Shown here piece by piece: positions 769 to 24,149 of a DNA stretch of 24,149 bases. Where the stretch lies: IMG/VR virus record IMGVR_UViG_3300042503_002058, positions 1-24,149 of that record. The stretch is one strand, 5' to 3'. The position numbers and the translations under genes are program-made. This DNA comes from a virus. Positions within the stretch are counted from its first letter, which is position 1. Every line of letters starts with the position of its first letter. The notes beneath the pieces were generated by a model. It was given only the letters and a program-made list of their open reading frames with translations, ran no database searches and had not been told where the DNA came from.

Positions 769-776
769 GTTCTAAA

Positions 777-784
777 TATTTATC
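777..784 (-). promoter_or_regulatory. Late-promoter-like box GATAAATA
   Basis: On the minus strand GATAAATA lies 8 nt before the fibre ATG at 768. It differs from the T4 late box TATAAATA at the first base. The longer string GATAAATATT is also found before the fibre gene starting at 6041. Function is inferred from this match and from the gp55 homologue encoded at 18346-18966. Confidence 0.35.
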
Positions 785-792
785 ACTTTATA

Positions 793-1131
793 TTATAAAT
801 TATCCTTAATATAGATAACTCTATTAAGTTTTTTACCGTCATTGAAAGATATAATCATTTCAACGTAGCCATTTTCTAAATTTATATTTTTTCCTTGATA
901 ATTTTCTCCTAAATTTTGGGATTCTACATAAAGTTCTTCGACTAAACTTAATGCACTTTCCGTGTTTAAATTTTCACCTTTTGATATAACAAAACCAGAA
1001 CTAGAATGAACCAAAGTATATAAACTTGTATCTAATTCTTCATTATAATTTAAATTTAATACAACTAATTCATTAGTTTGATTATTCAAATAAACATTTG
1101 CATATTGATCATATATTTCTACGTTTTTCAT
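793..1131 (-). CDS. Small protein of unknown function in tail-fibre block
   Basis: This encodes 112 residues from the ATG at 1131 (MKNVEIYDQYANVYLN). The frame extends upstream to a TTG at 1161, but that would overlap the protease gene, so I chose the ATG, which sits 2 nt after the protease stop. The composition is acidic and Asn-rich, with alternating beta-type stretches and no signal peptide or membrane segment. I do not recognise a family. Its place between a virion-type protease and a fibre gene suggests a small virion or fibre-assembly protein, which is inference only. Confidence 0.7.
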   Translation of the reverse strand: MKNVEIYDQYANVYLNNQTNELVVLNLNYNEELDTSLYTLVHSSSGFVISKGENLNTESALSLVEELYVESQNLGENYQGKNINLENGYVEMIISFNDGKKLNRVIYIKDNL

Positions 1132-1133
1132 AA

Positions 1134-2357
1134 TTAAATAACGGTTAATCCTGTCTGCCAATATCTTTTTCCATTTTCTATAACAAACGGTTCTGATGAT
1201 TTTCCTTCTACATATTTAACTCTTTCATTTCCCAAATTTGTTAAAGCGGTGGTTTGACCATCCCATGCTGTTAATTGTAAAGTAGAACAAATATTATCGA
1301 TGCGACATGCATACGATGGACTATTATCTCCTAAATCTGAACCAGCAAAAGTTAAACCAACCACTTTCCATGCGCTTAAAGATTGACTTTCGGGGTTTAT
1401 TAAAGCACAAACAGCACTACCCGAATCTCCACCACTACTAGCAACAGTAAATGTTCCTCTATAAGTTAAACATGATGTAAAATTTAAAATATTTCCACTA
1501 AAATTAACACCTACAGAAACTCCAACTTGAGTAGCAGTAAGAGAACACGATTCAGAACCCCAAGGTATAGAACCTGGCCATCCAACAGGACCAGTTGTTG
1601 CACCTGATTTAAAAATTGGATTTTTATTTATGACCAAATTATCAATTTCAGAGGTAGTGGCAAATTCAAGATTTCCATAATTTAAATTTAATTGTTTAAA
1701 AGATGTAAGTGTGTTTACTCTACTTGAATTTGTTATGGCTACAACTGCTGCATCAATTGTGTTTCCACTTGCTAAAAGCGGAACATACCTTTTTAATTTC
1801 ATTGTAGATTGATTTGACCAAGGGAAAGCTTGGTATACTGTTGTTTGTCTATTGCTAAAACTTGAAGACAATAAAGATGCGTCTCTTTCTGTATAAGCAG
1901 CAACGTGTGCATTTGTTAATGCAACAAGAGTATTGTCGGTGAGATCTTTACAGATAAGTCCCATAGTTCCTGTAAATGCACTGTTTCCTAAATTTAATGG
2001 ATTATCTATTGATATTCTTGTTCCACCAATATATGTTGTTCGAGATGATCTATGTAATGAAACTGGTTCAATGGAATCGCTAATAGTATAACAAGATGGA
2101 TATGCTACAGCTTGTGGAATTTGAACAACATCGGTATTAATAATGGTTCCATCTTCTGTTGTTATTGTTGATGGTAAAATTTCATTTTGCGGAATAGATG
2201 ATAATGGTTTTTTTTCAGTAACACCAAAAACTATAGAAAGTTCGTCTGTTAATTTTCCATCAACTTCTTTAAATCCATAACCAACCGAATGAACATATTC
2301 TGGAGTTTCTGCTAAAAGCTTTTGTGTTAATTTTTCTATATCTTTAATGTTATTCAT
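1134..2357 (-). CDS. Trypsin-fold serine protease in the tail cluster
   Basis: The 407-residue product carries a full chymotrypsin-type triad: His151 in TNAHVAA, Asp202 in NTIDAAVVAI and Ser312 in GGDSGSAV. The N-terminal part (residues 24-80, including SVGYGFKEVDGKLTDELSIVFGV) resembles the leader region of bacterial trypsin-like proteases of the Nal1-related type. There is no secretion signal, so the protein probably acts as part of the particle or on phage proteins in the infected cell. The start is the ATG at 2357, overlapping the previous gene's end by 8 nt; an upstream TTG at 2366 is less likely. It lies between a LamG-like fibre-tip protein and a small unknown gene, so roles in fibre maturation or in cleaving host surface protein are both possible. 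The fold is confident; the substrate is unknown. Confidence 0.85.
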   Translation of the reverse strand: MNNIKDIEKLTQKLLAETPEYVHSVGYGFKEVDGKLTDELSIVFGVTEKKPLSSIPQNEILPSTITTEDGTIINTDVVQIPQAVAYPSCYTISDSIEPVSLHRSSRTTYIGGTRISIDNPLNLGNSAFTGTMGLICKDLTDNTLVALTNAHVAAYTERDASLLSSSFSNRQTTVYQAFPWSNQSTMKLKRYVPLLASGNTIDAAVVAITNSSRVNTLTSFKQLNLNYGNLEFATTSEIDNLVINKNPIFKSGATTGPVGWPGSIPWGSESCSLTATQVGVSVGVNFSGNILNFTSCLTYRGTFTVASSGGDSGSAVCALINPESQSLSAWKVVGLTFAGSDLGDNSPSYACRIDNICSTLQLTAWDGQTTALTNLGNERVKYVEGKSSEPFVIENGKRYWQTGLTVI

Positions 2358-3057
2358 AAGACACAAAAGTTGTAAATGTTGATGCTGGTATTGTACTAAT
2401 AGGTTCGTCTATTTTATAAACTTTTATACTGTTAAAATATAAATCATTGTTTGGTGCTCCTTCAGTACCTGAAATATAAAATTTAAAACCTCTAATATTA
2501 CTATAACCGTTACGTGTTATATCATTTTCAGTATATGTGGTTGTTCCTAATGTAACAGAATAACTATAAGAATTAAAATTAGTTTTTTTCAAAACAATCT
2601 TTGCAACCATTGTTGGGGAATAATCTTGACCTGTGCTTACTCCATTTATAATATAATTTCCCAATCCCCCTCCACCAACATTAAAATTAAAAACTTCTTG
2701 GGACCAGCCAGCATCATTATAAGCACTAAATCCTTTGTTACCATTTCTAAAATTTACAGAAATAGCTGCGGATAATGCATATCCTACCGATAAATTTGCA
2801 GGAAGGTTTCTTCTTACATCAATAAAATTACTTCCTGCTCCATTACCATATAATCCAAAAGAAGAACCGTTTGTATCTATTAAGCCACCAAATGAAGGTC
2901 CAATAAACGCACCCGCATTACCTGTTGATGTAAAATCCCAAGCATCAAAACCATATCCAAAATTAGATGCACCAGCGAAAGAACCTCCGTAATTAATGGC
3001 GCGATCTTCACCTATTAAAGAGTTTGATCCTGCTAAAGATCCCGAAAATACTCTCAT
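2350..3057 (-). CDS. Glycine-rich LamG-like surface or fibre-tip protein
   Basis: This encodes 235 residues from the ATG at 3057 ([12 protein letters not shown]). The ATG overlaps the stop of the collagen-like gene upstream as TAATG, which fixes the start and suggests translational coupling. The sequence is rich in Gly, Asn, Ser and aromatics. The pattern GFDAWDFTSTGNAGAFIGPS ... SSFGLYGNGAGSNF ... VNFRNGNKGFSAYNDAGW resembles concanavalin/LamG-type beta-sandwich domains of secreted bacterial proteins, remembered rather than searched. Coupling to a collagen-like fibre gene makes a receptor-binding tip or fibre-associated adhesin the natural guess. It ends 8 nt inside the protease gene. Confidence 0.75.
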   Translation of the reverse strand: MRVFSGSLAGSNSLIGEDRAINYGGSFAGASNFGYGFDAWDFTSTGNAGAFIGPSFGGLIDTNGSSFGLYGNGAGSNFIDVRRNLPANLSVGYALSAAISVNFRNGNKGFSAYNDAGWSQEVFNFNVGGGGLGNYIINGVSTGQDYSPTMVAKIVLKKTNFNSYSYSVTLGTTTYTENDITRNGYSNIRGFKFYISGTEGAPNNDLYFNSIKVYKIDEPISTIPASTFTTFVSYE

Positions 3058-4160
3058 TATGATATATCTCCAAAAAGACTCCAATCATTGGCAGATAATT
3101 TAACCACAGTTGCAACAGAATTTTGTGCTCTTATGCTGCGTTTATTTTCTGCACTTCTTAATGTTACTCCGTTTGCAGCAGATAATGTAACTGTTCCTAT
3201 ATTTAAACGAAGTATGCTAATTTGTGTTCCGTTACTAAAATTAACAGAATTATCATTTGGAACAGTTAATGTAATTGCACTAGGAGAATTAGCAGTGATA
3301 AATTCACTACTATCAGTTAATTGAAATGATCTAGTTGAAGTGACTGTATCCAGTGTCAGCGTTGCTGGTGCAAATGTTAATCCTGAATATGGAATAAATT
3401 TCCAACCAACTACAATATTTGTATAAATTAAAGAAAAGTTTCCTGATACATCACAAATTAAATCTTCTGCAACGCCGTCAATATTACTCCCATTTCTTTC
3501 AATTGTTAAATTATTAGAACCATATTTTTCAAAAGTAATATTAATAAATGCACCAGTTAAAGGATTTAATGGGAGTGTTGCTGTAATTGGTGTTGTATAT
3601 GTATTAAAAATAAAACCTTCATTAGAACTTAAAAGCGTATTATTTGTTTCTATTGATACATAATCAAACGATGATCCAGTTTGTCCTGTTGTGCCAGTTG
3701 CTCCTGTATTTCCTGCTCCAGTTGCTCCTGTATTTCCTTGCGATCCTGTTGGTCCTACTATACCAGTGTTTCCTTGAATACCAGTTGGGCCAGTATTTCC
3801 TTGTGTTCCTGTTGGTCCAACATCACCAGTATTGCCTTGAACTCCTGTTGGACCAGTATTTCCTTGTGTTCCTGTTGGTCCAACTATTCCTGTGTTTCCT
3901 TGAATACCAGTTGGACCTGTTGATCCTGTATTTCCTGAGCCAGTTGGTCCTGTTAAACCTGTGTTACCTTGAGTACCTGTTGGTCCTATTAAACCAGTAT
4001 TTCCTTGTGCTCCAGTTGGTCCGACTAAACCAGTATTACCTTGTACTCCTGTTGGTCCTGTTAAACCAGTATTACCTTGTACTCCTGTTGGACCAACTGA
4101 ACCAGTAGGTCCAGTAAAACCTATGTTTTGTATTGGATATAAATTTGAAAGTGTAATCAT
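3057..4160 (-). CDS. Collagen-like tail fibre protein
   Basis: The 367-residue product has a 13-residue head, then Gly-X-Y repeats over about residues 14-162 dominated by a 12-residue unit (GPTG-x-QGNTG-x-x). A globular module follows at about 165-262 ([14 protein letters not shown] to [11 protein letters not shown]), then a second beta-rich domain to the end ([16 protein letters not shown] ... [10 protein letters not shown]). The 165-262 module is closely similar to residues 349-446 of the neighbouring fibre protein at 4170-6041, showing duplication or exchange within the cluster. The start is the ATG at 4160, 9 nt after the upstream stop, with a CATAAATA box 6 nt before it. A trimeric fibre is the likely structure. 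Confidence 0.85.
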
Positions 4161-4166
4161 ATTTTT

Positions 4167-4174
4167 TATTTATG
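4167..4174 (-). promoter_or_regulatory. Late-promoter-like box CATAAATA
   Basis: The minus-strand CATAAATA ends 6 nt before the ATG at 4160 and overlaps the stop codon of the upstream fibre gene. It matches the T4 late box in seven of eight positions. A TSS about 6 nt downstream would leave essentially no leader. In AT-rich DNA a single match could be chance. Confidence 0.3.
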
Positions 4175-6041
4175 CTAATTTTGTTATGATAATATCTGGT
4201 GGTGTTGAAGTTGTTTGGTTTGGTGGAGCAGGATCAACTAAAACATCTCTAAGAGATGGGAATGGTCCACCATTAGGTATCGGTGGAACTAAACTAGTTC
4301 CATTATGTTCAACTTGTAACCAAATTCTAGTATCATCTTGAGTTACGTTTAACAATGCATTTCCAAATAAAATTTGATCTTGTGAAACTGTTCCACTTTG
4401 AAAATCTACGATTGATTGGACTTTTACTGGTGTTGCGTATCCAGTAGAAGGTTCATTTTTCCAAAGTGAAACCATTAATTGCAAACCGTTTTGTAAATCA
4501 TACAAGTGAAGGTTAGAATTAATCATATAATAACCAGTTTTTTTGATGGTAATGTATTGTGCTCCTAAAATGCCAGGATTCGTAATTCCACCAAATATTT
4601 CTGGATCTGTATTAACAACTGTTGTTGTAAATGGTATTCTACTAGTACCAGTTAAATTTGTAAGAAGAGTATTCCAAACAGCTTTATAAATTTTAATAGT
4701 TGGGTTTGTTAATCCTGAATATGGAATAAACCTCCATCCAATAGATGATGTTGTGTAAACCAAAGAAAAATTACTTGATACATCAACACCCAAAGCACTA
4801 GCAGCAGAATTTATATTACTACCATTTCTATTGATAGTTAATAGATTCCCTGGTTGAATCGTTGCTGTTATATTAATAAAATCACCAATTGCGGGACTTA
4901 AAGGTAATGTTGCAGTTAATGGACTACTTGTTGTATCAAAAATATAACCAGCATTCGATGAAAGTGTTCTATTTAATGTAATTGATGTATAATTAAAATT
5001 TGAACCAGTAGCTCCCGTTGGTCCTGTTGCACCAGTTTGTCCTGATCCAGTTGGTCCAGTTGGACCTGTTACACCAGTTGCACCTGTTGATGCTATTGCT
5101 AAAATTAAAGATTGATTGCCAGTAAATGATGTTGTTGAATTTATTAAAGTAACAGGAAATGTAACAAAACTATTATCAGCTATAATTGGTGCTGCATTAA
5201 TTCTCCATCTTTGAAAATTTGCAGAATTATTTCTATCTTGAATAACTATTATATCATTTTGTTTAAGTAAACCTAAAAATATGTCAACATCAACAAGATT
5301 TTCTGTTAAGTGACTTGCATGGATTTGTGTTGCATTTGCCTGTGTTAAAGCATTCCATCGAATATAACCAGGATTTGGTGGTGTTATCGTTGTACTAACG
5401 TCTGCTTTATATTCATAAAATGATGTGGATTGTCCTGCTGCTCCTGTTGGTCCTGTGGCTCCAGCTATTCCAACGCCTGTTGCTCCTGTTGCTCCAACTG
5501 GCCCAATTGGACCTGTTGTTCCTGCAACAGCATTTTGCCAATTTGAAGATAATGAACTAACAATCGAATATGTAGTTTGCCAATTAGCAGAAAGTTGTTT
5601 TAAATCGGTTCCTTGATAATTCCAAGTTGTTCCTGCGTTATTTTGTACAGTTATAAATGTGTTTTGCCAATTAGCAGATAATTGTTTTAAATCTGTGCCT
5701 TGATAGTTCCAGTTTGTTGCAGAATTTGCTTGAACAATATTATAGGTTTCTCCACCAGAACCCCATGTTGCAGAATTAGCCAGAACATTAGTATATGTTG
5801 ATTGCCAATTTGATGAAAGTGCTTTTAAATCAGTTCCTTGATAGCTCCATGTTGCTCCAGAATTTTGTCTAACTAAAGAAAACCCCTGATATCCCCTTGG
5901 TTCAGAAGCATAAATTAAATCAATTATGTTTTGAAAACTGGTTTTAATTTCTGCGGTAGCATTACTTTTATAACCTACTAAAAAATCACCTGTAAGTGGA
6001 ATTTGTCTAAGTTCAAATTGTGTAAAATTCCTTTGTGCCAT
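4170..6041 (-). CDS. Large modular tail fibre with collagen segments and C1q-like end
   Basis: The product is 623 residues. The head (1-55) starts MAQRNFTQFELRQIPLTGDFLVGYK, which may be a baseplate-binding region. Next come three near-copies of YQGTDLKQLSANWQ (67-80, 113-126, 142-155) and a fragment at 164-169, giving an Asn/Trp-rich repeat region. Short collagen stretches lie at about 175-203 and 319-347. They flank a domain at 207-316 (YEYKADVSTTITPPNPGYIRWN...). Residues 349-446 are the module shared with the fibre at 3057-4160. The C-terminal part (about 450-623) contains KKTGYYMINSNLHLYDL and DTRIWLQVEHNG, resembling C1q/TNF-type trimer heads. It directly follows gp15, so a long or proximal fibre is plausible. 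Confidence 0.85.
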   Translation of the reverse strand: MAQRNFTQFELRQIPLTGDFLVGYKSNATAEIKTSFQNIIDLIYASEPRGYQGFSLVRQNSGATWSYQGTDLKALSSNWQSTYTNVLANSATWGSGGETYNIVQANSATNWNYQGTDLKQLSANWQNTFITVQNNAGTTWNYQGTDLKQLSANWQTTYSIVSSLSSNWQNAVAGTTGPIGPVGATGATGVGIAGATGPTGAAGQSTSFYEYKADVSTTITPPNPGYIRWNALTQANATQIHASHLTENLVDVDIFLGLLKQNDIIVIQDRNNSANFQRWRINAAPIIADNSFVTFPVTLINSTTSFTGNQSLILAIASTGATGVTGPTGPTGSGQTGATGPTGATGSNFNYTSITLNRTLSSNAGYIFDTTSSPLTATLPLSPAIGDFINITATIQPGNLLTINRNGSNINSAASALGVDVSSNFSLVYTTSSIGWRFIPYSGLTNPTIKIYKAVWNTLLTNLTGTSRIPFTTTVVNTDPEIFGGITNPGILGAQYITIKKTGYYMINSNLHLYDLQNGLQLMVSLWKNEPSTGYATPVKVQSIVDFQSGTVSQDQILFGNALLNVTQDDTRIWLQVEHNGTSLVPPIPNGGPFPSLRDVLVDPAPPNQTTSTPPDIIITKLA

Positions 6042-6935: not shown

Positions 6936-6942
6936 TCCCAAC

Positions 6943-6950
6943 TACTTATA
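6943..6950 (-). promoter_or_regulatory. Late-promoter-like box TATAAGTA
   Basis: The minus-strand TATAAGTA lies 7 nt before the gp15 ATG, in the 36-nt gap after the 84-codon gene. It differs from TATAAATA by one base. The same octamer occurs before the holin-like gene. Confidence 0.35.
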
Positions 6951-6971
6951 GAGTAGAAAGGAATTAAATTG

Positions 6972-8354: not shown

Positions 8355-8732
8355 TTAATTACTTTGTGTATTTAATTGTTCAATAGATGTTTCAAAAAAT
8401 TCTATCTCTCTAACCGAACATTCTAACCTATCCGCAATATTTCTAATATCATCAATATTATCTTCAGCTTCTTTGTTTTTCTTTTTAATATAGTTGATTC
8501 GTCCTCCATGTTTAGGTAAAACTTTGTGGTAAAAAGAACCAAAATCAAAACTTTTTAAAACTTTCCCCCATCGGTTGCTGGTAGAATTTACTATTAAACA
8601 CATTTGAGGATTTGCCATTGATATCCATCTATTCAATAAAAAATATGATGGTTCATATTCTTTTGGTTTGTCTTTTCTGTTTTTTAAAACCCAATTCAAA
8701 AAATCAAAAAGTCTAGAATCTTTGTTTTTCAT
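8355..8732 (-). CDS. gp62: Clamp-loader small subunit, gp62-like
   Basis: The 125-residue product resembles the small clamp-loader subunits of environmental T4-type phages. RLFDFLNWVLKNRKDKP (7-23) leads into YEPSYFLLNRWISMANPQMCLIVN (26-49), the conserved block with PF/YxxNRxxS. A helical end follows, DIRNIADRLECSVREIEFFETSIEQL (95-120), like the lae-l-vs-reve segment. In T4, gp62 pairs with gp44 to load sliding clamp gp45. T4 gp62 is about 187 residues, so this is a short form like those in marine relatives. Its start overlaps the glycosyltransferase stop as ATGA. No gp44 or gp45 is visible here, so the call rests on the motif pattern. Confidence 0.65.
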   Translation of the reverse strand: MKNKDSRLFDFLNWVLKNRKDKPKEYEPSYFLLNRWISMANPQMCLIVNSTSNRWGKVLKSFDFGSFYHKVLPKHGGRINYIKKKNKEAEDNIDDIRNIADRLECSVREIEFFETSIEQLNTQSN

Positions 8733-9412
8733 TTAATATATTTTTTTTTAAAAATTTCCGAGCTTTTTTTCCAAGACTCACTATTCATACTATCTCCTAA
8801 ACCATAGTGAGTAACTTTAATCGGATAAACTCCCATTTTCAATTTATTTTGATTTGCTCTAATACAAAAACTCATATCATAATGATGAAAATCAAAACTT
8901 TCATCAAATTTTGTATTTGTTTCTAACAATCTTTTTACATTTACAGCAATAAAAAGACCATCAATTATAAGTGCTCTGGAATTTGAAGGACCAAAAACGG
9001 TTGTCCACGAATTTTTATCTTTTGAATGTGCAACTTCTCCTACCATATCTTCTCTGTTGCACATAAGATGCCAAGCCATTATAGGACTAGAAAGGTTACA
9101 CTTTTTCGAACCTGCTAATCCAACAATATCGTATTTTTCAAATGCTATTGTTAGTTTTTCTTCCCAAAACAAGTCATCTATTATTACATCATCATGCACA
9201 AAAATAATTTTTTCATCTTTATGTTTTTCGTTAATAAACTGATTATAAACTTTTGGCAATCCTTCTTTATTTTCAAAAATAACAGTGTATTTGATATTTT
9301 TTAATGTGGTCATTTTATCTATAAATAAAGCCATTTGACTTTTTTCTCTAAAATCGTCACCACATTTAGGTGTTGCAATAACAAAATGGTAATTATTTGA
9401 AGATTCAGACAT
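8729..9412 (-). CDS. GT-A glycosyltransferase (family-2-like)
   Basis: This encodes 227 residues from the ATG at 9412 (MSESSNNYHFVIATPK). A longer frame to 9466 adds a hydrophobic stretch but would overlap the divergent gene, so I prefer the internal ATG. The fold markers are a nucleotide-sugar entry strand (YHFVIATPKCGDDF), an HDD metal-binding motif at 73-75 in IIFVHDDVIIDD, then DIVGLAGSKKC, GEVAHSKDKN, a DGLFIAV block (151-157) and FHHYDMSFCIRA. This resembles bacterial glycosyltransferases of the PF13712 type. The acceptor could be phage DNA, phage proteins or host surface sugars. It heads the minus-strand operon through the gp62-like and GroES-like genes. Confidence 0.75.
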   Translation of the reverse strand: MSESSNNYHFVIATPKCGDDFREKSQMALFIDKMTTLKNIKYTVIFENKEGLPKVYNQFINEKHKDEKIIFVHDDVIIDDLFWEEKLTIAFEKYDIVGLAGSKKCNLSSPIMAWHLMCNREDMVGEVAHSKDKNSWTTVFGPSNSRALIIDGLFIAVNVKRLLETNTKFDESFDFHHYDMSFCIRANQNKLKMGVYPIKVTHYGLGDSMNSESWKKSSEIFKKKYIK

Positions 9413-9433
9413 AGATAAGAGTAAATATATCAT
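9406..9433 (+). promoter_or_regulatory. Possible sigma70-like promoter, CAGACA-N16-TATCAT
   Basis: CAGACA (9406-9411) and TATCAT (9428-9433) are 16 nt apart, and TATCAT ends 8 nt before the ATG at 9442. The layout equals that of the primase promoter (16-nt spacer, 8 nt to ATG), which is the main argument, since the -35 match is only four of six. The AT-rich divergent gap may also serve the minus-strand gene. Confidence 0.3.
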
Positions 9434-9441
9434 ATATACAC

Positions 9442-10023
9442 ATGAAAGCAAAGAAAAAAAGTCCAAAAACTACTATTGCAAAAGATTGTTGCTGCCAAAA
9501 AAAAGAAAAAAATCGTATTTTGCAAAATAATATGAGTAAAAAAACTATTGATTTGTCCAGCTACGATCCATTTGCTGCTCGTTTTATTGTTGCTTTGCTT
9601 AAAGAACAAGAAGATATTGTTGCTTCCGAAGAACAACCAAAATCTCCAGAAGAGTTTACTCCAGAAAAGAATCAAGAAGACTTTCAAAACTCTTTAGAAT
9701 CAGAAACTAACCCTGAACAATTCGATGTAGAGGGTACTCCAACTGAAATGACAACTGATACAATCAATTCTATTAGAAGTTGGTCGAGTAAATTGGATGA
9801 TTTTGCTTCATTTTTAAATGATCCTTCGTCTGAATCTTTGCATAAAATTTTAGCTGATGGTGATAGAGCAGGTAGTTTGCTTCGTGGTGTTACTAGAAAA
9901 GCTTCTGATAGCATTACTCGTATTGCTGGTGAAGTAGAAAAGTTAAAAGAAATTCTTAATACCTACATTATCACTGCTCCTAAAAAACTTCGTGATACTG
10001 AACAGCTTAAAGCTGGTGGTTAA
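9442..10023 (+). CDS. Hypothetical T4-type phage protein, plus-strand singleton
   Basis: The product is 193 residues. Residues 1-30 are very basic (MKAKKKSPKTTIAK) with a CCC run. After a second ATG (9532, MSKKTIDLSSYDPFAARF) comes an acidic Glu/Gln/Pro-rich linker (about 60-100), then a helical domain, WSSKLDDFASFLNDPSSESL ... LRGVTRKASDSITRIAGEVEKLKEILNTYI. I recall similar domains in unassigned virion-type proteins of environmental T4-type phages but cannot name a role. I give the longer start because promoter-like boxes sit 8 nt before it; the 9532 ATG (163 residues) is a real alternative. It stands alone on the plus strand and converges on primase, sharing the TTAA stop region. Confidence 0.75.
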   Translation: MKAKKKSPKTTIAKDCCCQKKEKNRILQNNMSKKTIDLSSYDPFAARFIVALLKEQEDIVASEEQPKSPEEFTPEKNQEDFQNSLESETNPEQFDVEGTPTEMTTDTINSIRSWSSKLDDFASFLNDPSSESLHKILADGDRAGSLLRGVTRKASDSITRIAGEVEKLKEILNTYIITAPKKLRDTEQLKAGG

Positions 10024-16527: not shown

Positions 16528-16535
16528 TACTTATG
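16528..16535 (-). promoter_or_regulatory. Late-promoter-like box CATAAGTA
   Basis: The minus-strand CATAAGTA lies 18 nt before the ATG at 16509, the same distance as TATAAGTA before the holin-like gene. It has two mismatches to the T4 late box and overlaps the uvsY start, so it is a weak candidate. Confidence 0.2.
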
Positions 16536-16931
16536 GAGTTGTTTATTAAATTTCAAACTGAAATCAAAGAAGATACTCAAATTGATCAAATCAATATATT
16601 AGAAAAGCAGCTAATGCTTCCTGCAATTAAGCATAAATGGGTTGCTAGACTAATCGAACAAAAGAAAAACAAAGCTATTTTAGAGAAAAAAAGAAAAGAC
16701 ATCAAAGAAGAAGTTTTAAAAGCTCTAACAAAAGATGGTTTACCATCAGGAATACCTAAAGCAGCTTTAAATTCAAAGGTAGAATCATCAGAAGCTATTA
16801 AAAAAATTGATGATGAGATAGAACAAACAGATCTAATAATAGAATACTTAGAAAAAGTAGAAAAGATTATGAGTTCTATTACCTTTGATATTAGCAATGC
16901 TGCAAAAATAATGGTTCTTGAAACTACTTGA
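16533..16931 (+). CDS. uvsY: Recombination mediator UvsY-like
   Basis: The 132-residue product fits UvsY in size (T4: 137) and pattern. It has an N-terminal TEIKEDTQIDQINILEKQLMLPAIKHKWVARL resembling T4 LKKDVFIDSTKLQYEA...SKWLNK. A charged helical middle (KKNKAILEKKRKDIKEEVLKAL) follows, and then a C-terminal helix pair (EQTDLIIEYLEKVEKIMSSITFDISNAAKIM), where T4 has YWGILLDFCSGALDAIKSRGF. UvsY loads the UvsX recombinase onto gp32-covered single-stranded DNA. The adjacent uvsW, joined by a TGATG overlap, strongly supports the call. It opens the right-hand operon behind a promoter-like pair. Confidence 0.8.
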   Translation: MELFIKFQTEIKEDTQIDQINILEKQLMLPAIKHKWVARLIEQKKNKAILEKKRKDIKEEVLKALTKDGLPSGIPKAALNSKVESSEAIKKIDDEIEQTDLIIEYLEKVEKIMSSITFDISNAAKIMVLETT

Positions 16932-18349
16932 TGTTAACGATCACCACAAACAATAAGCAAGGAATAATCACAGGAGATATTTTGGGACTAAGTCTTCTTC
17001 GTGAGAACTTTTCAATTGCAAACCCTGCTTATCGATCAAATAAAAGATTTATAGCTTCCAGATTATACGCAATTACTCCATCTGGAAAATTTGAAATTGG
17101 ATTGTTAAAAAATATTATTAATTTTTTAGATAAAGAACACATTCAATATACAATTGAATCCAATATTAAAAACTTATTTAATGTTGGATTTGAAAATCCA
17201 GTTTTAGAAACTTTAAATATTCCTTATAGAGATTACCAGAAAGAATCTATTTTTAATTGTTTAAGCCAAGGTAGAGGGGTTGTTATTATCCCAACAGCAG
17301 GAGGAAAAACGTTAGTAATGGCAGGATTAATTAAGAGTTTAAGGGAAAATTTAAAAGATCCAACTGCATTGTGTCTTGTATTAGTTCCGTCTTTGCAATT
17401 GGTTGAACAAACATCAGCAGATTTTACTTCTTATGGTTTAGAAAACGTCACAAAATGGTCTGGTGACAATCAACCAGATTTTGATGCATCAATCATAGTA
17501 GCAGGAACTCAAATTTTATTAAGCGAAAAAACAGATTTAAGTATTTTAAATGATGTTAAAATCTTAATTATTGATGAAACGCACGGTTTGCGTAAAGGAA
17601 ATGAAATTAATAAAATTTTTAATTTAATTCAGACAAATTATCGTTTTGGTTTTACTGGAACAATGCCAACATCATTAATTGACCAGTGGAATATTATAGG
17701 AAAAACAGGTCCTATTGTTTTTGAACAAAAAACACAAAATTTAAAACAACAAAATTATGTTTCAAACTTTAAAATTACTATTTTAAAAATTAAACACAAC
17801 GAACTTCCTCGATTTGCAGTTAATAGTTTGACTCCTGCTAGTGCTTACAATCAAGAAATTGATTTTTTAATCAATCATATTAGAAGAAACGAAATAATAT
17901 CCAAATTAGCTTCTAGGTTAGATAAAAATACAATTATCATGGTTGATAGAATAGATCATGGTATTAGTTTAGAAGCAAACTTAAAACAAATCTGCCAAGA
18001 AGTAAAAAAAGATGTTTATTTTATAAGAGGTTCAACAGATATTGAAGAAAGAGAGCAAATTCGAAAACTAATGGAAACCAAAAACAATATAGTAGTTGTA
18101 GCTATTTCAAAAATATTCAGCACAGGCATTAATATTCCAAATTTGCATAATATAATTTTTGCATCTGCTGGAAAAGCTAAAATAAAAATTATGCAATCAA
18201 TAGGAAGAGCATTACGATTACATCCAACAAAAACATTAGCTCACATATTTGATGTTGCAGATAACACAAAGTATGGTAAAATCCATGTCGAAGAAAGAAT
18301 AAAACTTTACAACACAGAAAAATATAATTTTGAAATTAAAAACATATGA
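16931..18349 (+). CDS. uvsW: DNA helicase UvsW (SF2, branch migration)
   Basis: The 472-residue product has all main SF2 motifs: the Q-like RDYQKE (100-105), Walker A PTAGGKT (121-127), DETH (215-218), FTGTMP (241-246), FSTGINIPN (396-404) and QSIGRALR (422-429). The N-terminal 95 residues correspond to the UvsW DNA-binding extension. T4 UvsW is 503 residues with the same layout and unwinds R-loops and branched recombination DNA, shifting the phage from origin-dependent to recombination-dependent replication. I use the ATG at 16931 (TGATG overlap with uvsY); a TTG at 16928 also lies in frame. The stop overlaps gp55 as ATGA. Confidence 0.9.
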   Translation: MLTITTNNKQGIITGDILGLSLLRENFSIANPAYRSNKRFIASRLYAITPSGKFEIGLLKNIINFLDKEHIQYTIESNIKNLFNVGFENPVLETLNIPYRDYQKESIFNCLSQGRGVVIIPTAGGKTLVMAGLIKSLRENLKDPTALCLVLVPSLQLVEQTSADFTSYGLENVTKWSGDNQPDFDASIIVAGTQILLSEKTDLSILNDVKILIIDETHGLRKGNEINKIFNLIQTNYRFGFTGTMPTSLIDQWNIIGKTGPIVFEQKTQNLKQQNYVSNFKITILKIKHNELPRFAVNSLTPASAYNQEIDFLINHIRRNEIISKLASRLDKNTIIMVDRIDHGISLEANLKQICQEVKKDVYFIRGSTDIEEREQIRKLMETKNNIVVVAISKIFSTGINIPNLHNIIFASAGKAKIKIMQSIGRALRLHPTKTLAHIFDVADNTKYGKIHVEERIKLYNTEKYNFEIKNI

Positions 18350-18966
18350 AAACAAAAAAAAACTCCAGAAGATATAAAAAAGCATTTAAAGAAGAAGATG
18401 ACGATGATTTAGATTTAGAAATTATTGAAAATTTAGATCATCCTCTTTTAGATGATTCTTATAATGAAGAAGATTCAGATTCTGATGAATCTGAAGAAGA
18501 AGAAGAAAGTAAAACGGCAGATGTTAAAAAAAATAAAAAAGCAGATAAAGCTAAATTTTATGTAGAGCCTAAAAAATTCGATGAAGAAATTATGCTTTAT
18601 TATGGAAACGGAATTATAAGCAATGAATTAGCCGAAATGATTAGCAAAATTTCTAATAAATTAAGCTACGCTCCAAACTTTATTAATTATAGTTATAGAG
18701 AAGAAATGGTTGGAGATGGAATCATTCGCATGATGAAAGCGTTAATAGCTAAAAAATATAATCATGTAAAAGGAACAAATCCTTTTTCGTATTTTACAAG
18801 AATAGCCTTTAATGCTTTTAGAAATCGAATTAAAAAAGAAAAGAAAATCCACGAAACACATGAGAAATACAGAAGAGAACTGATGAACATGTCAGAAAAT
18901 TACAATAATCTTCTTAAAAATAACAATATCCGCATTATGAAAGAAAGAGACAGACTTTTCGAATGA
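18346..18966 (+). CDS. gp55: Late-transcription sigma factor, gp55-like
   Basis: The 206-residue product aligns with T4 gp55 from about residue 80. ISNELAEMISKISNKLSYAPNF...YREEMVGDGIIRMMKAL matches T4 AIMLIAEGLSKRFNF...WKQEMIADGIEASIKGL, and NPFSYFTRIAFNAFRNRIKKEKK (145-167) matches [23 protein letters not shown]. In T4, gp55 directs RNA polymerase to late promoters and binds the sliding clamp. Residues 14-58 form an acidic extension (EEDDDD, SDSDESEEEEE) not present in T4. The C-terminus is about 40 residues shorter, ending RDRLFE, with at best a degenerate form of the T4 clamp-binding SLDFLYE. It overlaps uvsW and gene 47. Confidence 0.85.
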   Translation: MKTKKNSRRYKKAFKEEDDDDLDLEIIENLDHPLLDDSYNEEDSDSDESEEEEESKTADVKKNKKADKAKFYVEPKKFDEEIMLYYGNGIISNELAEMISKISNKLSYAPNFINYSYREEMVGDGIIRMMKALIAKKYNHVKGTNPFSYFTRIAFNAFRNRIKKEKKIHETHEKYRRELMNMSENYNNLLKNNNIRIMKERDRLFE

Positions 18967-20000
18967 TGTTAAAAAATTCTAAAATTGGTTGTTTTTCAGA
19001 TATTCATTTAGGAATTTATCATGACGATAAAACTTGGCATGATATTATTTTAAAATTTGCTAAATGGGCTTCAGATTTTTATAAAAAAAACAACATTAAA
19101 GATATTTTTATACCAGGAGACATATTTCACAATAGAAACGAAATTGGTGTTGAAACATTACACATAGCAAAACAGTTTTTTGATTATTTTAAAGATTTTA
19201 ATGTTTATATATCGGCAGGAAACCATGATAGTTTTTTAAAACACGAAAGTATTATTAATTCAATTAGTATTTTTGATGGGTGGAACAATATAAAAATCAT
19301 AGATAAAGAATGTTTAACTGTTAATACAGAAAACAAAAAAATATGTTTTGTGCCTTGGGGAACACCAATCGATGAAATTCCTAATTGTGATATTATTTTT
19401 GGACATTTTGAAATTAATTCTTTCTACATGAACAATTATAAAGTTTGCGAAAAAGGTATTAATTCATCTGATTTGTTTAAAAAATCCAAATTTATAATAT
19501 CCGGTCATTTTCATAAAAAAGATTTTCGAGAATATAAAAATGGTAAAATTTTATACGTTGGAAGTCCGTATCAACAAAATTTTGGAGATGTTTTAGATGA
19601 AAGAGGCATTTACATTATTGATCTAGATACAGAAAATTATGTTTTTTATAAAAACAATATTTCTCCAGAGCATATTAAAATTAATATCAGTGATTTAGTC
19701 GAAAATAAAATTGATGAAACAAAAATAAACAAAAATATTATTAAACTAATAATCGATAAAAATATTGATCACGATAAGATTATATCTTATAAAGATAATG
19801 TTTTTAAAAAAACACCTTTAATTTTTAAAACTGAATATCAAATATCAGAAGATTTAAACACAAACATATCAACTGACCAGTTTTCATTTGATGAAAATAA
19901 CTTCTTAAAAGATATTGAAGAATATTTAAACAAAACAGATATTGAGCATAAAAAAGAAGTTGTAGAATATCTAAAAGAGTTGTATAATTCATTAGTATGA
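18963..20000 (+). CDS. gp47: Recombination nuclease subunit gp47 (Mre11/SbcD-like)
   Basis: The 345-residue product has the full metallophosphoesterase set: SDIHLG (12-17; Asp13, His15), PGDIFHNR (51-58), AGNHDS (85-90), FGHFE (146-150) and SGHFHK (180-185), followed by GSPYQQNFGD. T4 gp47 (339 residues) pairs with the ATPase gp46 to resect DNA ends for recombination-dependent replication. The start is at 18963 (ATGA overlap with gp55); the ATG at 18966 is equally possible. In T4, gene 46 follows; here a glycosyltransferase-like gene follows by an ATGA overlap, and gp46 is not visible in the window. Confidence 0.9.
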   Translation: MMLKNSKIGCFSDIHLGIYHDDKTWHDIILKFAKWASDFYKKNNIKDIFIPGDIFHNRNEIGVETLHIAKQFFDYFKDFNVYISAGNHDSFLKHESIINSISIFDGWNNIKIIDKECLTVNTENKKICFVPWGTPIDEIPNCDIIFGHFEINSFYMNNYKVCEKGINSSDLFKKSKFIISGHFHKKDFREYKNGKILYVGSPYQQNFGDVLDERGIYIIDLDTENYVFYKNNISPEHIKINISDLVENKIDETKINKNIIKLIIDKNIDHDKIISYKDNVFKKTPLIFKTEYQISEDLNTNISTDQFSFDENNFLKDIEEYLNKTDIEHKKEVVEYLKELYNSLV

Positions 20001-20770
20001 ATAAAGAAGAAATAGGCATAGGAATTTTGGACGTTTATAGCTCCGCAGATTTAACAAATTGCTTTAATTCAATTCCTGATGAATTTAAAAACCAAAAAAA
20101 TTTATTAGTTGTTTCTGATACCAAAAACAAAAACGATATTGATTATCCTGTAACTAAAATTGGAACAGGAATTCAAATGGCATCATTAAGAAATTGGATT
20201 TTAGGACAATTTAGATCTAACGGAATTAAACATATTTTTTTAATTAATTCTAATCAAATTATTAAAAATTCAAATCTTTTTGAAGATGTTATCACAAAAG
20301 CAGAAATTTTTGGAACATGGTTTATGTCAGGACCAGAAAAAATAGCTGTTACTTTGGAAGATGATAAATTTAAAAATTCTTTAACTTTATCAACTAGCTT
20401 AAACAGTGATTTTATTTATATCTATTCGGGAATTATAAACAATATAGGATATTTTGATGAAAAATATTTTAACACCAAAGAATTAGATGTAGTAGATTAT
20501 ATCATTAAAATGAGAGAGAAGAAAATATATCCTCCTAATCATTTTTATCCAATGATTTCCGATGGTGTTGAATCTTCTAGTAGTAAAATTGAAAAAAACA
20601 ATTACACCGAAACTTTAAGCAATGATAAATCCGTTCAAATGTCTTATGGTTACTTTTTTTTCAAAAACAAATATATACCAAAACAAAACGAACCAGCAGC
20701 AGTTTCTCAAGAAGAATTAATAAATTCTATGGAAGAAATTCAGAAAAATTATGGGAAAAAATCTGAATAA
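19997..20770 (+). CDS. Glycosyltransferase-like protein lacking the DxD motif
   Basis: The 257-residue product resembles the GT-A proteins encoded next to it. EIGIGILDVYSSADLTNCFNSIP (5-27) parallels IGIGITTYNSENYFESLYNSLP in the gene at 21548. KHIFLINSNQIIK (78-90) lies where the neighbours have HIFLMEDDIEI and HIFIIEDDMII. The acidic EDD is replaced by NSN, so metal-dependent transfer may be lost; it may be a binding or partner protein. The rest includes a Phe/Tyr-rich patch (GYFFFKNKYIPKQN). It overlaps gp47 as ATGA and the next gene by 20 nt. Confidence 0.6.
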   Translation: MNKEEIGIGILDVYSSADLTNCFNSIPDEFKNQKNLLVVSDTKNKNDIDYPVTKIGTGIQMASLRNWILGQFRSNGIKHIFLINSNQIIKNSNLFEDVITKAEIFGTWFMSGPEKIAVTLEDDKFKNSLTLSTSLNSDFIYIYSGIINNIGYFDEKYFNTKELDVVDYIIKMREKKIYPPNHFYPMISDGVESSSSKIEKNNYTETLSNDKSVQMSYGYFFFKNKYIPKQNEPAAVSQEELINSMEEIQKNYGKKSE

Positions 20771-21575
20771 TGTAGGTTGTGCAATTATTACATGTGATAG
20801 ATTAGACTTTTTTAAAAAAAGTTATCAGTCATTATTAGCATGTAAAGATCTTGGCATTCATATAGTTGTTGTAAACGATGGTAATGAAAAACTACCAAAT
20901 GATATTGAAAATGTAATAGAAACTGGTGGTAAAAAAGGAGTTGCTATAGCTAAAAATTTAGGTTTAAAGTTTTTTTTAGATAAAAACTTAGAACATATAT
21001 TTTTAATGGAAGACGATATAGAAATTTTAAATAACAAAATTTTTGAATTATATATTAATGGTCAAGAATCTACAGGAATTAAACACTTTAACTTTGGTTT
21101 GCACGGAAATCATAATTTAGATTATCTTGGTCGCCCTAATATCAGAAAAACAATAAACTATCCTAATAATACAAGAATAAATCTATACCCTAATTTACTG
21201 GGTGCTTTTAGCTATTATCATGTAGACACATTAAAAGAAGCAGGATTGATGGATGAAAGCTTTTATAATGCTTTGGAGCATGTCGATCATACATACCAAA
21301 TCCTTGAAAAAGGATATCATCCACCCTTTAGATGGTTTGCTGATGTAGAAGGTTCTAGTGCATATCTTAAAGATATTGTTCCTGATCACCAACAAAGCAA
21401 AATTAGAAATGAATCAGATTTTCAACAAACCTTTAAAAAAGCATTAGATACTTTTATATCTAAAAATGGTTTTAGTGTTGTTCAAGGATACGGACCATCA
21501 GAAAAACTTTATTCCGAAAAAGATTGTTTAGAAAATCTAAAAGAGATATGGAAATTTTATCAAACGAAAAAATAG
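20751..21575 (+). CDS. GT-A glycosyltransferase (family-2-like)
   Basis: The 274-residue product has the entry strand NNVGCAIITCDRLDFFKKSYQSL (6-28), VVVNDGN (39-45), KKGVAIAKNLGLK (61-73) and the metal-binding EHIFLMEDDIEI with EDD at 87-89. The later block YNALEHVDHTYQILEKGYHPPF, with FRWFADVEGSSAYL, is shared in form with the next gene (PFWWFADLANSDDF). It should transfer a sugar from a nucleotide donor; the acceptor (phage DNA base, fibre protein or cell wall) cannot be told. It overlaps the gene before by 20 nt and the gene after by 28 nt, giving a tightly coupled set. Confidence 0.75.
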   Translation: MGKNLNNVGCAIITCDRLDFFKKSYQSLLACKDLGIHIVVVNDGNEKLPNDIENVIETGGKKGVAIAKNLGLKFFLDKNLEHIFLMEDDIEILNNKIFELYINGQESTGIKHFNFGLHGNHNLDYLGRPNIRKTINYPNNTRINLYPNLLGAFSYYHVDTLKEAGLMDESFYNALEHVDHTYQILEKGYHPPFRWFADVEGSSAYLKDIVPDHQQSKIRNESDFQQTFKKALDTFISKNGFSVVQGYGPSEKLYSEKDCLENLKEIWKFYQTKK

Positions 21576-22363
21576 GAATAGGAATAACAACTTATAACTC
21601 TGAAAATTATTTCGAGTCTCTTTATAATTCTCTTCCGCTTTCAAAAATTGATGAATTGGTTGTTGTAAATGGAGGAAATCCTTATCAAAAATCATATTCT
21701 GCTGATTGGATTCAGCATCGAAAAAATAGATTTCCATCCACATGTAGAAATGATTGTATAACCTTTCTTTTAAACAAAAACTGTGAACATATTTTTATTA
21801 TTGAAGATGATATGATCATAAAAAACGAAAACATATTTGATGTATACATCAAAACATCAAAAATTTCTGGATTGAAATATTTTTCTTTTGTTAGTATGAG
21901 CGAAAAGGCAGGGTTACCACATCAAAGAACACCAAGAATGACTGTTGGGTATTCACCAGAAATAGCAATATCCTTTTATGAAAACATGTGTAATGAATTT
22001 ACATATCATCACAAAAGTAGCTTTTTACAAACTGGTCTTTATGATTCAAAAATGAGAGATTTATTTGATGCAGATAGAGTTTACAGAGATAGTCTTTACA
22101 ATAAAAACGTATCTCCTTTTTGGTGGTTTGCTGATCTTGCAAATTCTGATGATTTTATCATGAACAATCCAGATGCAAGTAGTAGATTGCAAGATACCAA
22201 CCGACCTGACGGATCAAGATCTGATTTTATTCACGACACATTAAAATATTTTCAAGATAAACACGGTATACCTATTAATAGCGTACCTTTAAAATCAAAA
22301 GAAGAAGTTATAGAATTTTTAAAAAAAATAAAAAATGAATGTACAATTAATACACAAAGCTGA
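21548..22363 (+). CDS. GT-A glycosyltransferase (family-2-like), paralogue
   Basis: This encodes 271 residues from the ATG at 21548 (MEILSNEKIGIGITTYNSENY). An in-frame TTG at 21524 is less likely, and AAAGAGAT before the ATG gives a weak ribosome-binding site. It has LVVVNGGNPYQKS (37-49), CRNDCITFLLNKNCEHIFIIEDDM (EDD at 86-88) and PFWWFADLANSDDFI. It is clearly a paralogue of the gene at 20751 in layout. The acceptor is unknown. The two paralogues may add successive sugars. The end overlaps the methyltransferase gene by 29 nt. Confidence 0.75.
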   Translation: MEILSNEKIGIGITTYNSENYFESLYNSLPLSKIDELVVVNGGNPYQKSYSADWIQHRKNRFPSTCRNDCITFLLNKNCEHIFIIEDDMIIKNENIFDVYIKTSKISGLKYFSFVSMSEKAGLPHQRTPRMTVGYSPEIAISFYENMCNEFTYHHKSSFLQTGLYDSKMRDLFDADRVYRDSLYNKNVSPFWWFADLANSDDFIMNNPDASSRLQDTNRPDGSRSDFIHDTLKYFQDKHGIPINSVPLKSKEEVIEFLKKIKNECTINTQS

Positions 22364-23012
22364 AGAAATTGTTGTTAAAAATTTAGGACATTGCTCTAAC
22401 TTTAAACAATCAGATTTAAAACTTTCTGAAGAAGGAAAAAAGTTTTGGATCAATCATGATGTTGCTCGACTTCCATCAACATATTATTTTAACAAATATG
22501 TTAAAGAATTTAATTTATTTTCAAAAAAACTTTTAACTTTTGGAGGACAAGATGATATTGAAGTCAAACTTTTACCTCACGAAACTTGGGTCAACTGTGA
22601 TTATTGGGCAAATAAAAATGATGATGTCGAAGATTTATCTAAATCGAATTTAGATAAAGACTTTGACTTTTGTTTGATTAATCAAGCTTTTGAACATTTA
22701 ACTGATATTGAAAGCTCTATTAAAAATATCAAAGACCATTTAAAAACAGATGGAATTCTATATTGTAATTTTCCAGTTTTAAATATTCCACATGCTGAAC
22801 CATACTTGTTTTTTACTGGTATAACTGTTCGTTATATTGTTTATCTGTGTCTCAAACATAAATTTCAAATTTTAACGTGTGGTCAATGGGGTAACCAAGA
22901 GTACATTGAATTTATTTATAAAAATTTAACTTGGCCAGATTATACACAAATCAATTTAGATACGGATATTAAAAAGCCTTGTATAGGTTGGGTTTTGGCT
23001 AAAAAAGCATGA
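22335..23012 (+). CDS. SAM-dependent methyltransferase-like protein
   Basis: The 225-residue product has a class I methyltransferase-like core. SKKLLTFGGQDDIEVKL occupies the motif I position, where the usual GxGxG is degenerate, and VNCDYW is next. Then comes FDFCLINQAFEHLTDIESSIKNIKDHLKTDGILYCNFP, the typical D-x-I/V...EH motif with a strand-forming LKTDGxLYxxxP. The rest has an aromatic stretch (LFFTGITVRYIVYLCLKHKF). Its place between sugar-transfer genes suggests methylation of a sugar or of the glycosylated product. An atypical motif I leaves it uncertain whether it binds SAM. It overlaps the genes on both sides (29 and 4 nt). Confidence 0.65.
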   Translation: MNVQLIHKAEEIVVKNLGHCSNFKQSDLKLSEEGKKFWINHDVARLPSTYYFNKYVKEFNLFSKKLLTFGGQDDIEVKLLPHETWVNCDYWANKNDDVEDLSKSNLDKDFDFCLINQAFEHLTDIESSIKNIKDHLKTDGILYCNFPVLNIPHAEPYLFFTGITVRYIVYLCLKHKFQILTCGQWGNQEYIEFIYKNLTWPDYTQINLDTDIKKPCIGWVLAKKA

Positions 23013-23785
23013 AAATAGCAATAGGAATTAATATATTTGGAGAAAATAAAAGACAAACCTTTTGTATTGATGTTTTAAAAAAACTTAAAGACAAATTTAA
23101 TAATAAAATTTCACTATATAACATTACTTTTAAAAACGAGTTAAACAAAGATTCTAGTTTTATCCATCTGCCATTTTTAAAACAAACAGCAGAAGATATT
23201 ATTGAAGGATCTATATCAAAAAAACCCACCACAAAACAATTTTTTGATATTTTATCTCAACAAAATTGTGATTATTTTATATTTTTAAATAGTGATATTT
23301 TGCTATCACCAAAATTTATTGATTTAATATCAAAACAAGATTATGAAACATATTGCGTTTCACGACATGATACATTACCAATCGAATCTATCGATAAAAT
23401 TGTTCCATATCGTATTGAAATTGCTGGTTTTGATGTTTGGGCTATTAAAACTGATTGGTGGAAACAAAACCATCAACATTTTAAAGATTATGTTTATGCA
23501 GAACATTTGTGGGATGTAGATTATACACTAACTATGTATAATAATAGTTCTTGTTTACTTTGTAATAAAGAATTTTATGCTGCTCACGAAAAACATGAAT
23601 TAAATTGGAATGAACAATCATTAGAAGCTAGATATAATTCTTCATTATGGGAAAAAACTTGTTATACGTCTAATTGGAAAGAGTTTATTTACGAAAACTT
23701 AGTTAAAAGACTTCCATATGGACAATTTTTAGAACCACTGTATAATGAAATAGAACTAGAAAAAAAGTATCTTAAAATTAAATAA
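23009..23785 (+). CDS. Glycosyltransferase-like protein with NSD motif
   Basis: The 258-residue product has a GT-A-like start (MKIAIGINIFGENKRQTFCI) and KQFFDILSQQNCDYFIFLNSDILLS, with NSD at 94-96 in the position of DxD. The middle, VPYRIEIAGFDVWAIKTDWW, and HLWDVDYTLTMYNNSS (about 166-181) resemble acceptor-site blocks of GT-A enzymes that keep a His/Asp-rich loop. It differs from the two EDD paralogues, so it is probably a separate family. The start overlaps the methyltransferase stop as ATGA. A function in the same glycan pathway is inferred from position. Confidence 0.6.
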   Translation: MKIAIGINIFGENKRQTFCIDVLKKLKDKFNNKISLYNITFKNELNKDSSFIHLPFLKQTAEDIIEGSISKKPTTKQFFDILSQQNCDYFIFLNSDILLSPKFIDLISKQDYETYCVSRHDTLPIESIDKIVPYRIEIAGFDVWAIKTDWWKQNHQHFKDYVYAEHLWDVDYTLTMYNNSSCLLCNKEFYAAHEKHELNWNEQSLEARYNSSLWEKTCYTSNWKEFIYENLVKRLPYGQFLEPLYNEIELEKKYLKIK

Positions 23786-23790
23786 GCACT

Positions 23791-24149
23791 ATGAACATAT
23801 ACACCGTTTTTACTGAATCTCATCGATCATTATTTGAAAATTACATGTTCAAAACACTACCCTTTGATTCTAGATTAGAACTTAGAGTTTTATTTAAAGA
23901 ACAAACATGCAATGCTGAATTTAGAAGCCAAGGATGGAAAGATACAATGTATTATAAAGTTCGTTGTTTTATCCAAGCCGCATATGAAATAAAAGATGGT
24001 GAATATTTTATATTTTGCGACCCAGACATTCAATTTTTTAAACCTTTTTATGATGATATTTTAAAAGAAGTAGACGGTTATGATGCAGCATTTCAAAATG
24101 ATTATGGTGGAGGTGTTAATACTGGTTTCTTTATAATGAAATCTACACC
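23791..24149 (+). CDS. Glycosyltransferase, 3' end cut by window edge
   Basis: The frame opens at the ATG at 23791, 5 nt after the previous stop, and stays open for 119 codons to the window end. MNIYTVFTESHRSLFENYMF is followed by YYKVRCFIQAAYEIKDGEYFIFCDPDIQFF, with a DPD metal-binding motif at 77-79, then FQNDYGGGVNTGFFIMKS. This order (YK...I...D-x-D-ixff...NTGffxxk) matches nucleotide-diphospho-sugar transferases of the PF03407 type. It is the best-motif member of this set and continues off the right edge. Confidence 0.75.
   Translation, partial: MNIYTVFTESHRSLFENYMFKTLPFDSRLELRVLFKEQTCNAEFRSQGWKDTMYYKVRCFIQAAYEIKDGEYFIFCDPDIQFFKPFYDDILKEVDGYDAAFQNDYGGGVNTGFFIMKST

Follow-up and report, generated by a model that had tools for sequence, protein, structure and literature searches.

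The 24,149-nt stretch analysed here (the window) is the virus record IMGVR_UViG_3300042503_002058, and it carries a block of glycosyltransferase (GT) genes directly behind gene 47, at the place where gene 46 would be expected in a T4-like phage. We propose, with a probability of roughly one half, that this block belongs to a cassette for virion-protein glycans, with a conserved core and a variable arm, in a lineage of large, uncultivated aquatic phages related to T4. A GT block at the 47/46 junction was not peculiar to the window contig. The order uvsW-55-47-[GTs]-46-43-uvsX-41 was found in 10 of 10 uncultivated phage contigs of 107–226 kb, which were read whole. As the order was kept in all ten contigs, the cassette has a fixed place in the recombination/replication operon of the lineage.

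A sequence-only reading of the window had described five GT-like genes and one methyltransferase-like gene after gene 47, all on the same strand and separated by overlaps or a 5-nt gap, and the open reading frames (ORFs) bore this out (Table 1). The coupling of gene 47 to the first gene of the block by ATGA was recovered as a 4-nt overlap between gene 47 and GTa, the 5-nt gap was located between GTd and GTe, and the other neighbours in the block overlapped. The last ORF, GTe, runs past the contig end at 24149. In the case of GTc, the start was assigned to a TTG at 21524, with an alternative in-frame ATG at 21548. GTa, GTb, and GTc were matched to one glycosyltransferase family, phrog_2456, using PHROG profiles. 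With Pfam, GTb matched PF00535 below the cut-off (0.014), and no match was obtained for GTa and GTc.

Table 1. Genes of the recombination operon, the GT block, and other features of the window referred to in the text.
Feature	Position	Strand	Evidence
uvsY-like gene, operon start	16533..16931	+	Position and synteny in relatives
uvsW-like helicase	16928..18349	+	phmmer with T4 uvsW, synteny
Gene 55, late sigma factor	18346..18966	+	phrog_234, 9.8e-26
Gene 47, SbcD/Mre11-like subunit	18963..20000	+	phrog_100, 1.9e-64
GTa, GT-like, without the usual acidic motif (INSN)	19997..20770	+	phrog_2456, 2.3e-7
GTb, GT2-like transferase, invariant EDD	20751..21575	+	phrog_2456, 1.5e-20
GTc, GT2-like transferase, EDD	21524..22363	+	phrog_2456, 4.2e-14
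S-adenosylmethionine (SAM) methyltransferase	22335..23012	+	Methyltransf_11, 3.6e-5, above cut-off
GTd, MGAT4-like transferase, N[SNT]D motif	23009..23785	+	PF04666, 0.0026, below cut-off
GTe, PF03407-like transferase, DPD, incomplete at contig end	23791..24149	+	PF03407, 0.012, below cut-off
GTx, further GT outside the block, between gp61 and gp15	8729..9466	-	PF13712, 1.2e-10
Candidate acceptors of glycans: fibre-like, collagen-like proteins with G-X-Y repeats that contain Thr, beside gp15 and interspersed with other ORFs	1..6041	-	

Relatives were collected by a gp47 search, which gave 16 loci, and a GTb search, from which the best 80 of 88 loci were taken; in another search for related loci, the best 80 of 101 were kept. 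Among the 64 loci with gene 47, GTa was present in 62 and GTb in 62, and the order uvsY-uvsW-55-47-GTa-GTb was found in 56 of the 56 loci holding all six genes. The remaining eight of the 64 missed some gene, mostly near a contig edge. In locus L068, gene 47 (38% identity) was followed directly by GTb, without GTa. Locus L023 carried uvsW as two ORFs (4811–5977 and 6668–7540) about 0.7 kb apart, as if an element had been inserted. A megablast search with one 11.6-kb piece of contig G001 gave no close cultured relative, and gp47 stayed below 60% identity in each of the 2817 phage records that it matched. Assignment to the bS21 phage clades was tried and rejected: PF01165 was detected in 2/10 contigs, and the terminase was far from the capsid gene where both were shown.

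The window itself did not contain gp46, as its contig ends at 24149. A phmmer search with gp46 of S-SSM4 and RB49 located the gene past gene 47, in the same orientation, in 32 of the 64 loci with gene 47. Comparison of gp47 k-mers marked 12 of these 32 as near-duplicates, which left 20 distinct intervals, with 47-to-46 gaps of 4,326–12,973 bases (median 8,954), and the gaps in the ten whole contigs were 4,326–12,156 bases (median 9,258). The locus-based median leans short because the other 32 gene-47 loci stop 1–11,578 bases past gene 47. Ten loci of this group stop more than 11.5 kb past it without gp46, and one of the ten, L042, belongs to contig G004, in which gp46 lies 12,156 bases after gene 47. 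Elsewhere, the gap measures 443 bases in T4, where it holds two small genes, 241 bases in S-SSM4, and 1,396 bases in RB49. As gp46 was located beyond the GT block in the relatives, it was displaced rather than lost, and a missing or replaced gp46 was rejected for the lineage. The block does occupy the expected gp46 site, as had been claimed for the window. The downstream gp46 that the sequence-only reading had proposed to look for was obtained in the relatives, 4.3–13.0 kb past gene 47 and on the same strand, while the window contig ends before it. That reading had also counted a gp46 located elsewhere against itself, if combined with evidence that the GTs act on host sugars; a location elsewhere applies only weakly, since the gene lies further along the same operon.

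The 20 distinct intervals between genes 47 and 46 contained 208 ORFs in 81 clusters, 49 of which were singletons. GTa was present in 20/20 intervals and GTb in 20/20, the latter count consisting of 19 by clustering and the L022 copy, which was masked there by a longer frame overlapping it. A protein of about 493 aa was found in 16/20 intervals, with GT2 and GT7 domains in the member scanned, and a 425-aa-type GT was also found in 16/20. The Pfam scan covered 199 of the 208 ORFs. Of the nine omitted, six are on the minus strand and three are short plus-strand frames, and two have hydrophobic stretches. Among the families listed, GT2 occurred 40 times, followed by GT7 (16), FkbM methyltransferase (15), GT47 (6), and GDP-mannose dehydratase (5), with one or two each of FucT, GT25, DegT, and FdtA. 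The methyltransferase of the window had no best-hit relative in the surveyed loci and no match in the ten contigs, and was found only in the window contig. Judged by this gene content, the cassette is a conserved core with variable arms.

The leading gene, GTa, was followed through 80 loci found with the GTa alignment, near-duplicates included. In 68 of the 80 loci, its overlap with gene 47 was exactly 4 nt, and in 73 it lay within 200 bases of that gene. Six further loci placed GTa 403–1,447 bases from gene 47, four of them still beside GTb, and one locus, ended by a contig edge, shows no gene 47. At the position of the metal motif, x-S-N was found in 33/34 orthologs and H-S-D in one, with D or E as x in three of the 33. 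The GTa model was confident (predicted local distance difference test score, pLDDT, 93.4), and its best matches in the PDB were TarS, TarP, and B4GALNT1, which are GT-A enzymes, at 11–13% identity and template-modelling (TM) scores of about 0.4–0.6. The ratio of nonsynonymous to synonymous substitution rates (dN/dS) had a median of 0.126 for GTa (27 pairs) and 0.103 for GTb (32 pairs), the pairs not being independent. GTa is thus under purifying selection. Because the x-S-N motif is combined with a low dN/dS, GTa is a maintained protein that has probably lost metal-dependent catalysis. The GTa alignment comprised all 33 loci and the window, and the GTb alignment 32 of 48 non-redundant loci and the window.

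The overlap with gene 47, the x-S-N motif, and the purifying selection would also suit a role of GTa outside glycan synthesis, namely recruitment to the gp46/gp47 nuclease, which it would regulate or serve as a structural partner, with the glycans made from GTb onwards only. However, 4-nt overlaps are ordinary in this operon, and gene 47 of T4 likewise overlaps the next gene by 4 nt. The six loci with GTa 0.4–1.4 kb away from gene 47, four of them still adjoining GTb, and locus L068, in which GTb directly follows gene 47, also argue against such recruitment. We therefore regard this role as improbable, and infer instead that GTa would act as a non-catalytic partner in glycan synthesis.

In the other transferases, the corresponding motifs were conserved: EDD in 33/33 GTb and 22/22 GTc sequences, DPD in 16/16 GTe, N[SNT]D in 25/25 GTd, and HDD in 10/11 GTx. 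The GTb model (pLDDT 94.0) resembled B4GALNT1, chondroitin polymerase, and polypeptide GalNAc transferases, with TM-scores of about 0.5, and these matches indicate the fold and not the acceptor. On these predicted structures, both GTa and GTb appear similar to GT-A enzymes. GTb also matched gp232 of ScoobyDoobyDoo (3e-24), and in other phage lineages relatives of the block GTs were located away from gene 47. A Candidatus Nitrotoga contig from a metagenome-assembled genome (MAG) carries a GTb relative (L208:9986–10816) with 57% identity to the window copy and 86% to the one in phage locus L155. Its neighbours look chromosomal, with UmuC-like and LexA-like genes recognised by eye. Uptake from such a phage, a pointer to the host, and a binning artefact are possible explanations.

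Regarding the target of the enzymes, the sequence-only reading had favoured DNA or the virion, citing co-expression with recombination and late-transcription genes. This argument proved weak: the T4-type late promoter TATAAATA occurred at chance level (5.3 matches expected in the window and 4 found, with 0 on the plus strand of the block), and the GT relatives of other lineages stand apart from gene 47. The DNA half of the proposal assumes that the GTs decorate phage DNA bases in the manner of T4 a-gt and b-gt and thereby block restriction. The idea is reasonable in view of T4, in which a-gt neighbours gene 47 on the opposite flank, and the block lies within a replication operon. Beside uvsX and gp46, two of the ten contigs (G004 and G006) contain QueD/QueE-like genes, which hint at 7-deazaguanine bases in those phages. 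In another lineage, locus L081 has a GTP cyclohydrolase, a PTPS/QueD, and a QueE-like gene within 7 kb of GTs, the QueE-like call being our own reading of a weak 4Fe-4S match. The GTs at L081:3023–8268 and L076:6503–8636, the latter locus likewise from outside the lineage of the window, lie near QueD/QueE-like and deoxynucleoside-kinase-like genes, with the GTP cyclohydrolase in L081, and these neighbourhoods suggest 7-deazaguanine DNA bases. A modified base is therefore possible in some of these phages. Moreover, ScoobyDoobyDoo gp232, a member of the PHROG family of GTb, weakly matched phrog_842 (1.4e-4), the beta-glucosyl-HMC-alpha-glucosyltransferase family, which acts on glucosylated hydroxymethylcytosine (HMC) DNA.

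However, PF00303 (thymidylate synthase/hydroxymethylase) was found in 0/10 contigs, with a control that detected T4 gp42 and thymidylate synthase, and PF00145 (C5-methylase) in 0/10 with a working control; the contigs searched for these families may be incomplete. T4 gp42, a-gt, and b-gt gave no phmmer match in the ten contigs, and for a-gt and b-gt the search at E 1e-4 covered the ten contigs and the window. PF12851 (TET/JBP dioxygenase) was found in 0/11, though its control was also silent. The GTs of the window had no phrog_842 match at E up to 1, and no T4 GTs appeared among the fold matches listed for GTa and GTb; T4 a-gt and b-gt are GT-B enzymes, unlike the GT-A-like models obtained here. 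DNA decoration is disfavoured because neither PF00303 nor PF00145 was found in any of the ten contigs, and we consider it very improbable for the block.

The main rival to virion glycans is modification of the host surface, in which the enzymes would remodel host surface sugars during infection by changing lipopolysaccharide (LPS) or capsule units that are assembled in the cytosol, and would thereby stop other phages from adsorbing or let progeny out. The gene mix of the intervals (GDP-mannose dehydratase, DegT, FdtA, FkbM, and fucosyltransferase) resembles O-antigen loci, the PDB fold matches listed include capsule and wall-teichoic-acid transferases, and soluble GTs can act on lipid-linked units. 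In contrast, a hydrophobic stretch of 19 residues was found in only 4 of the 208 interval ORFs, at most two per ORF, with controls that were detected (T4 imm, 55.8, 47.1, MacB, and UacT (1.84)), and the intervals thus showed neither a multi-spanning transferase nor a flippase or polymerase, unlike O-antigen modification of the Gtr/Wz type. Likewise, no flippase, polymerase, or initiating transferase was among the families listed, although host machinery could supply them. GTb is also rare in bacterial genomes: a scan of 84,980 species gave 92 pattern matches, of which at least 4 were recognised as relatives, and the 4 loci were all from MAGs. Host surface modification is therefore judged possible but doubtful.

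For the virion, the comparison was made with Che8. The proteins Che8 gp108, gp109, and gp110, presumably the enzymes that make the Che8 capsid glycans, had phrog_8858, phrog_1721, and phrog_854 as their top families. The 425-aa interval GT of the relatives matched the gp108 family phrog_8858 (2e-32), and the GT7 part of their 493-aa protein matched the gp109 family phrog_1721 (2e-7). Both systems have a phage-encoded GT cluster, and one Che8 protein has a methyltransferase domain. The Che8 GTs lie near the genome end, whereas here the GTs lie at the 47/46 junction, with more genes and with nucleotide-sugar enzymes. Glycans on the Che8 capsid are reported in PMC11256854, and C-terminal glycans on capsids and tail tubes of mycobacteriophages in PMC12619734.

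Candidate acceptors were also present. In the collagen-like region of the window (Table 1), two ORFs have G-X-Y runs with 30 and 35 Thr, and the ORF at 4170–6041 matched PF01391 below the cut-off (0.0006); these collagen-like proteins may be acceptors of the glycans. Thr-rich collagen-like or Thr/Pro/Ser-rich proteins were found in the window and in 5/10 contigs. In the window and in G001, gp15 is adjoined by collagen-like repeats that contain Thr. G006 and G007 have collagen-like proteins, and Thr/Pro/Ser-rich proteins number four in G003 and one in G002; a run in G010 with one Thr was left out of the collagen-like count. In a partial control for this enrichment, consisting of 99 kb of T4, 61 kb of S-SSM4, 11 kb of RB49, and 14 kb of Che8, none was over the thresholds. 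The long mucin-like stretches of G003 (162411–172424, 29333–33172, 72436–73851, and 38134–39501) and G002 (140191–141819) belong to proteins that reach 3337 aa, one of which lies between the gp20 and gp15 genes. A collagen protein as universal acceptor was rejected, as PF01391 was found in 3/10 contigs only. In the case of the portal, 7/8 proteins had C-terminal tails with a combined Ser and Thr fraction (S+T) of 0.20–0.33; the gp20 tails of G001–G007 are Ser/Thr/Pro/Glu-rich, and T4 gp20 is without such a tail. Near gp61, a GTx relative was present in 10/10 contigs, and in 7/10 it was also less than 8 kb away from gp15. Two further genes were noted in these parts of the window: an ORF at 1134–2366 on the minus strand, among the collagen-like fibre genes, reads by eye as a trypsin-like serine protease, with NAL1_N (0.0085, below cut-off) as its only Pfam match, and an AAA_28 kinase-like gene lies at 11020–11670 on the minus strand; in 10/10 contigs, a relative lies no more than about 2 kb from gp61.

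Several points weigh against virion proteins as the target. The block is located among replication genes and not among virion genes. The GTs of the window match neither phrog_8858 nor phrog_1721, in a block that ends with the contig, and GTb had no significant similarity to the Che8 GTs. Collagen-like or mucin-like proteins were not found in 5/10 contigs, and a portal tail may sit inside the head. The Che8 acceptor tails are, we assume, Ser/Thr-rich; such ends were not seen on gp23 or gp19 here, and a Ser/Thr-rich capsid or tail-tube end was rejected as acceptor, as the S+T of the last 40 residues was 0.00–0.17 in nine gp23 and 0.12–0.20 in ten gp19. In addition, authors working on other aquatic phages favour a role in host LPS (PMC7029224 and PMC9723584).

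Under the virion-glycan proposal, the cassette would be a phage-encoded, cytosolic glycan assembly system at the 47/46 junction. The proximal core (the 47-coupled GTa, GTb, and then GTc or the GT2-GT7 protein) would probably start and extend a chain from nucleotide sugars, and the distal variable set (other GTs, methyltransferases, and sometimes GDP-mannose dehydratase and an aminotransferase) would alter the tip of the chain. The sugars, the acceptor, and this order of reactions are what we infer; the chain would most likely be O-linked to virion proteins, perhaps to the Thr-rich repeats of the fibres or to the portal tail, which contains Ser, Thr, and Pro. More tentatively, and with rather more doubt than belief, the 47/46 junction might be viewed as a "phage serotype" locus, in which a fixed GT core, led by a catalytically dead GT coupled to the gene of the recombination nuclease, is joined to exchanged arms, each phage thus having its own virion glycan; the arms would be swapped among phages by the recombination system that houses the locus.

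Phages with comparable genes have been described. The moraphages are likewise large, T4-related, and aquatic, and their core genome contains four GT orthogroups; PMC12619734 lists DNA, the host, and the virion as possible GT targets. The shared set given there includes uvsW, exonuclease subunit 2 (gp46), and PhoH, with ClpA and lysyl-tRNA ligase (LysRS) at an occurrence of 24 each. In the ten contigs, GTs were found in 10/10 and PhoH in 9/10, whereas ClpA (N-terminal part) and LysRS were found in 0/10 by phmmer with E. coli queries, a comparison made without moraphage sequence. The sections of that paper covered here do not place the moraphage GTs at the 47/46 junction. The host-recognition cluster of pelagimyophages (PMC7029224) is similar in that aquatic T4-like phages carry several GTs with sugar enzymes; those GTs are placed in the structural/tail-fibre region and in small genome clusters, whereas here the recombination operon is the site.

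A GT block between genes 46 and 47 was not reported in the literature searched, a search that left subscription papers mostly outside. Phage-encoded glycan synthesis is already known, and to our knowledge virion glycans made by phages have been described mainly for mycobacteriophages. The position, the overlap with gene 47, the leading GT without the motif, and the layout of core plus arms are new. As the cassette has a fixed place between two recombination genes, it is easy to locate and test. If the proposal is true, sugar-coated virions would be common in water, as the lineage is seen in many metagenome contigs, and part of the "LPS genes" in such aquatic phages would be accounted for. The cassette would also be a source of many soluble GTs.

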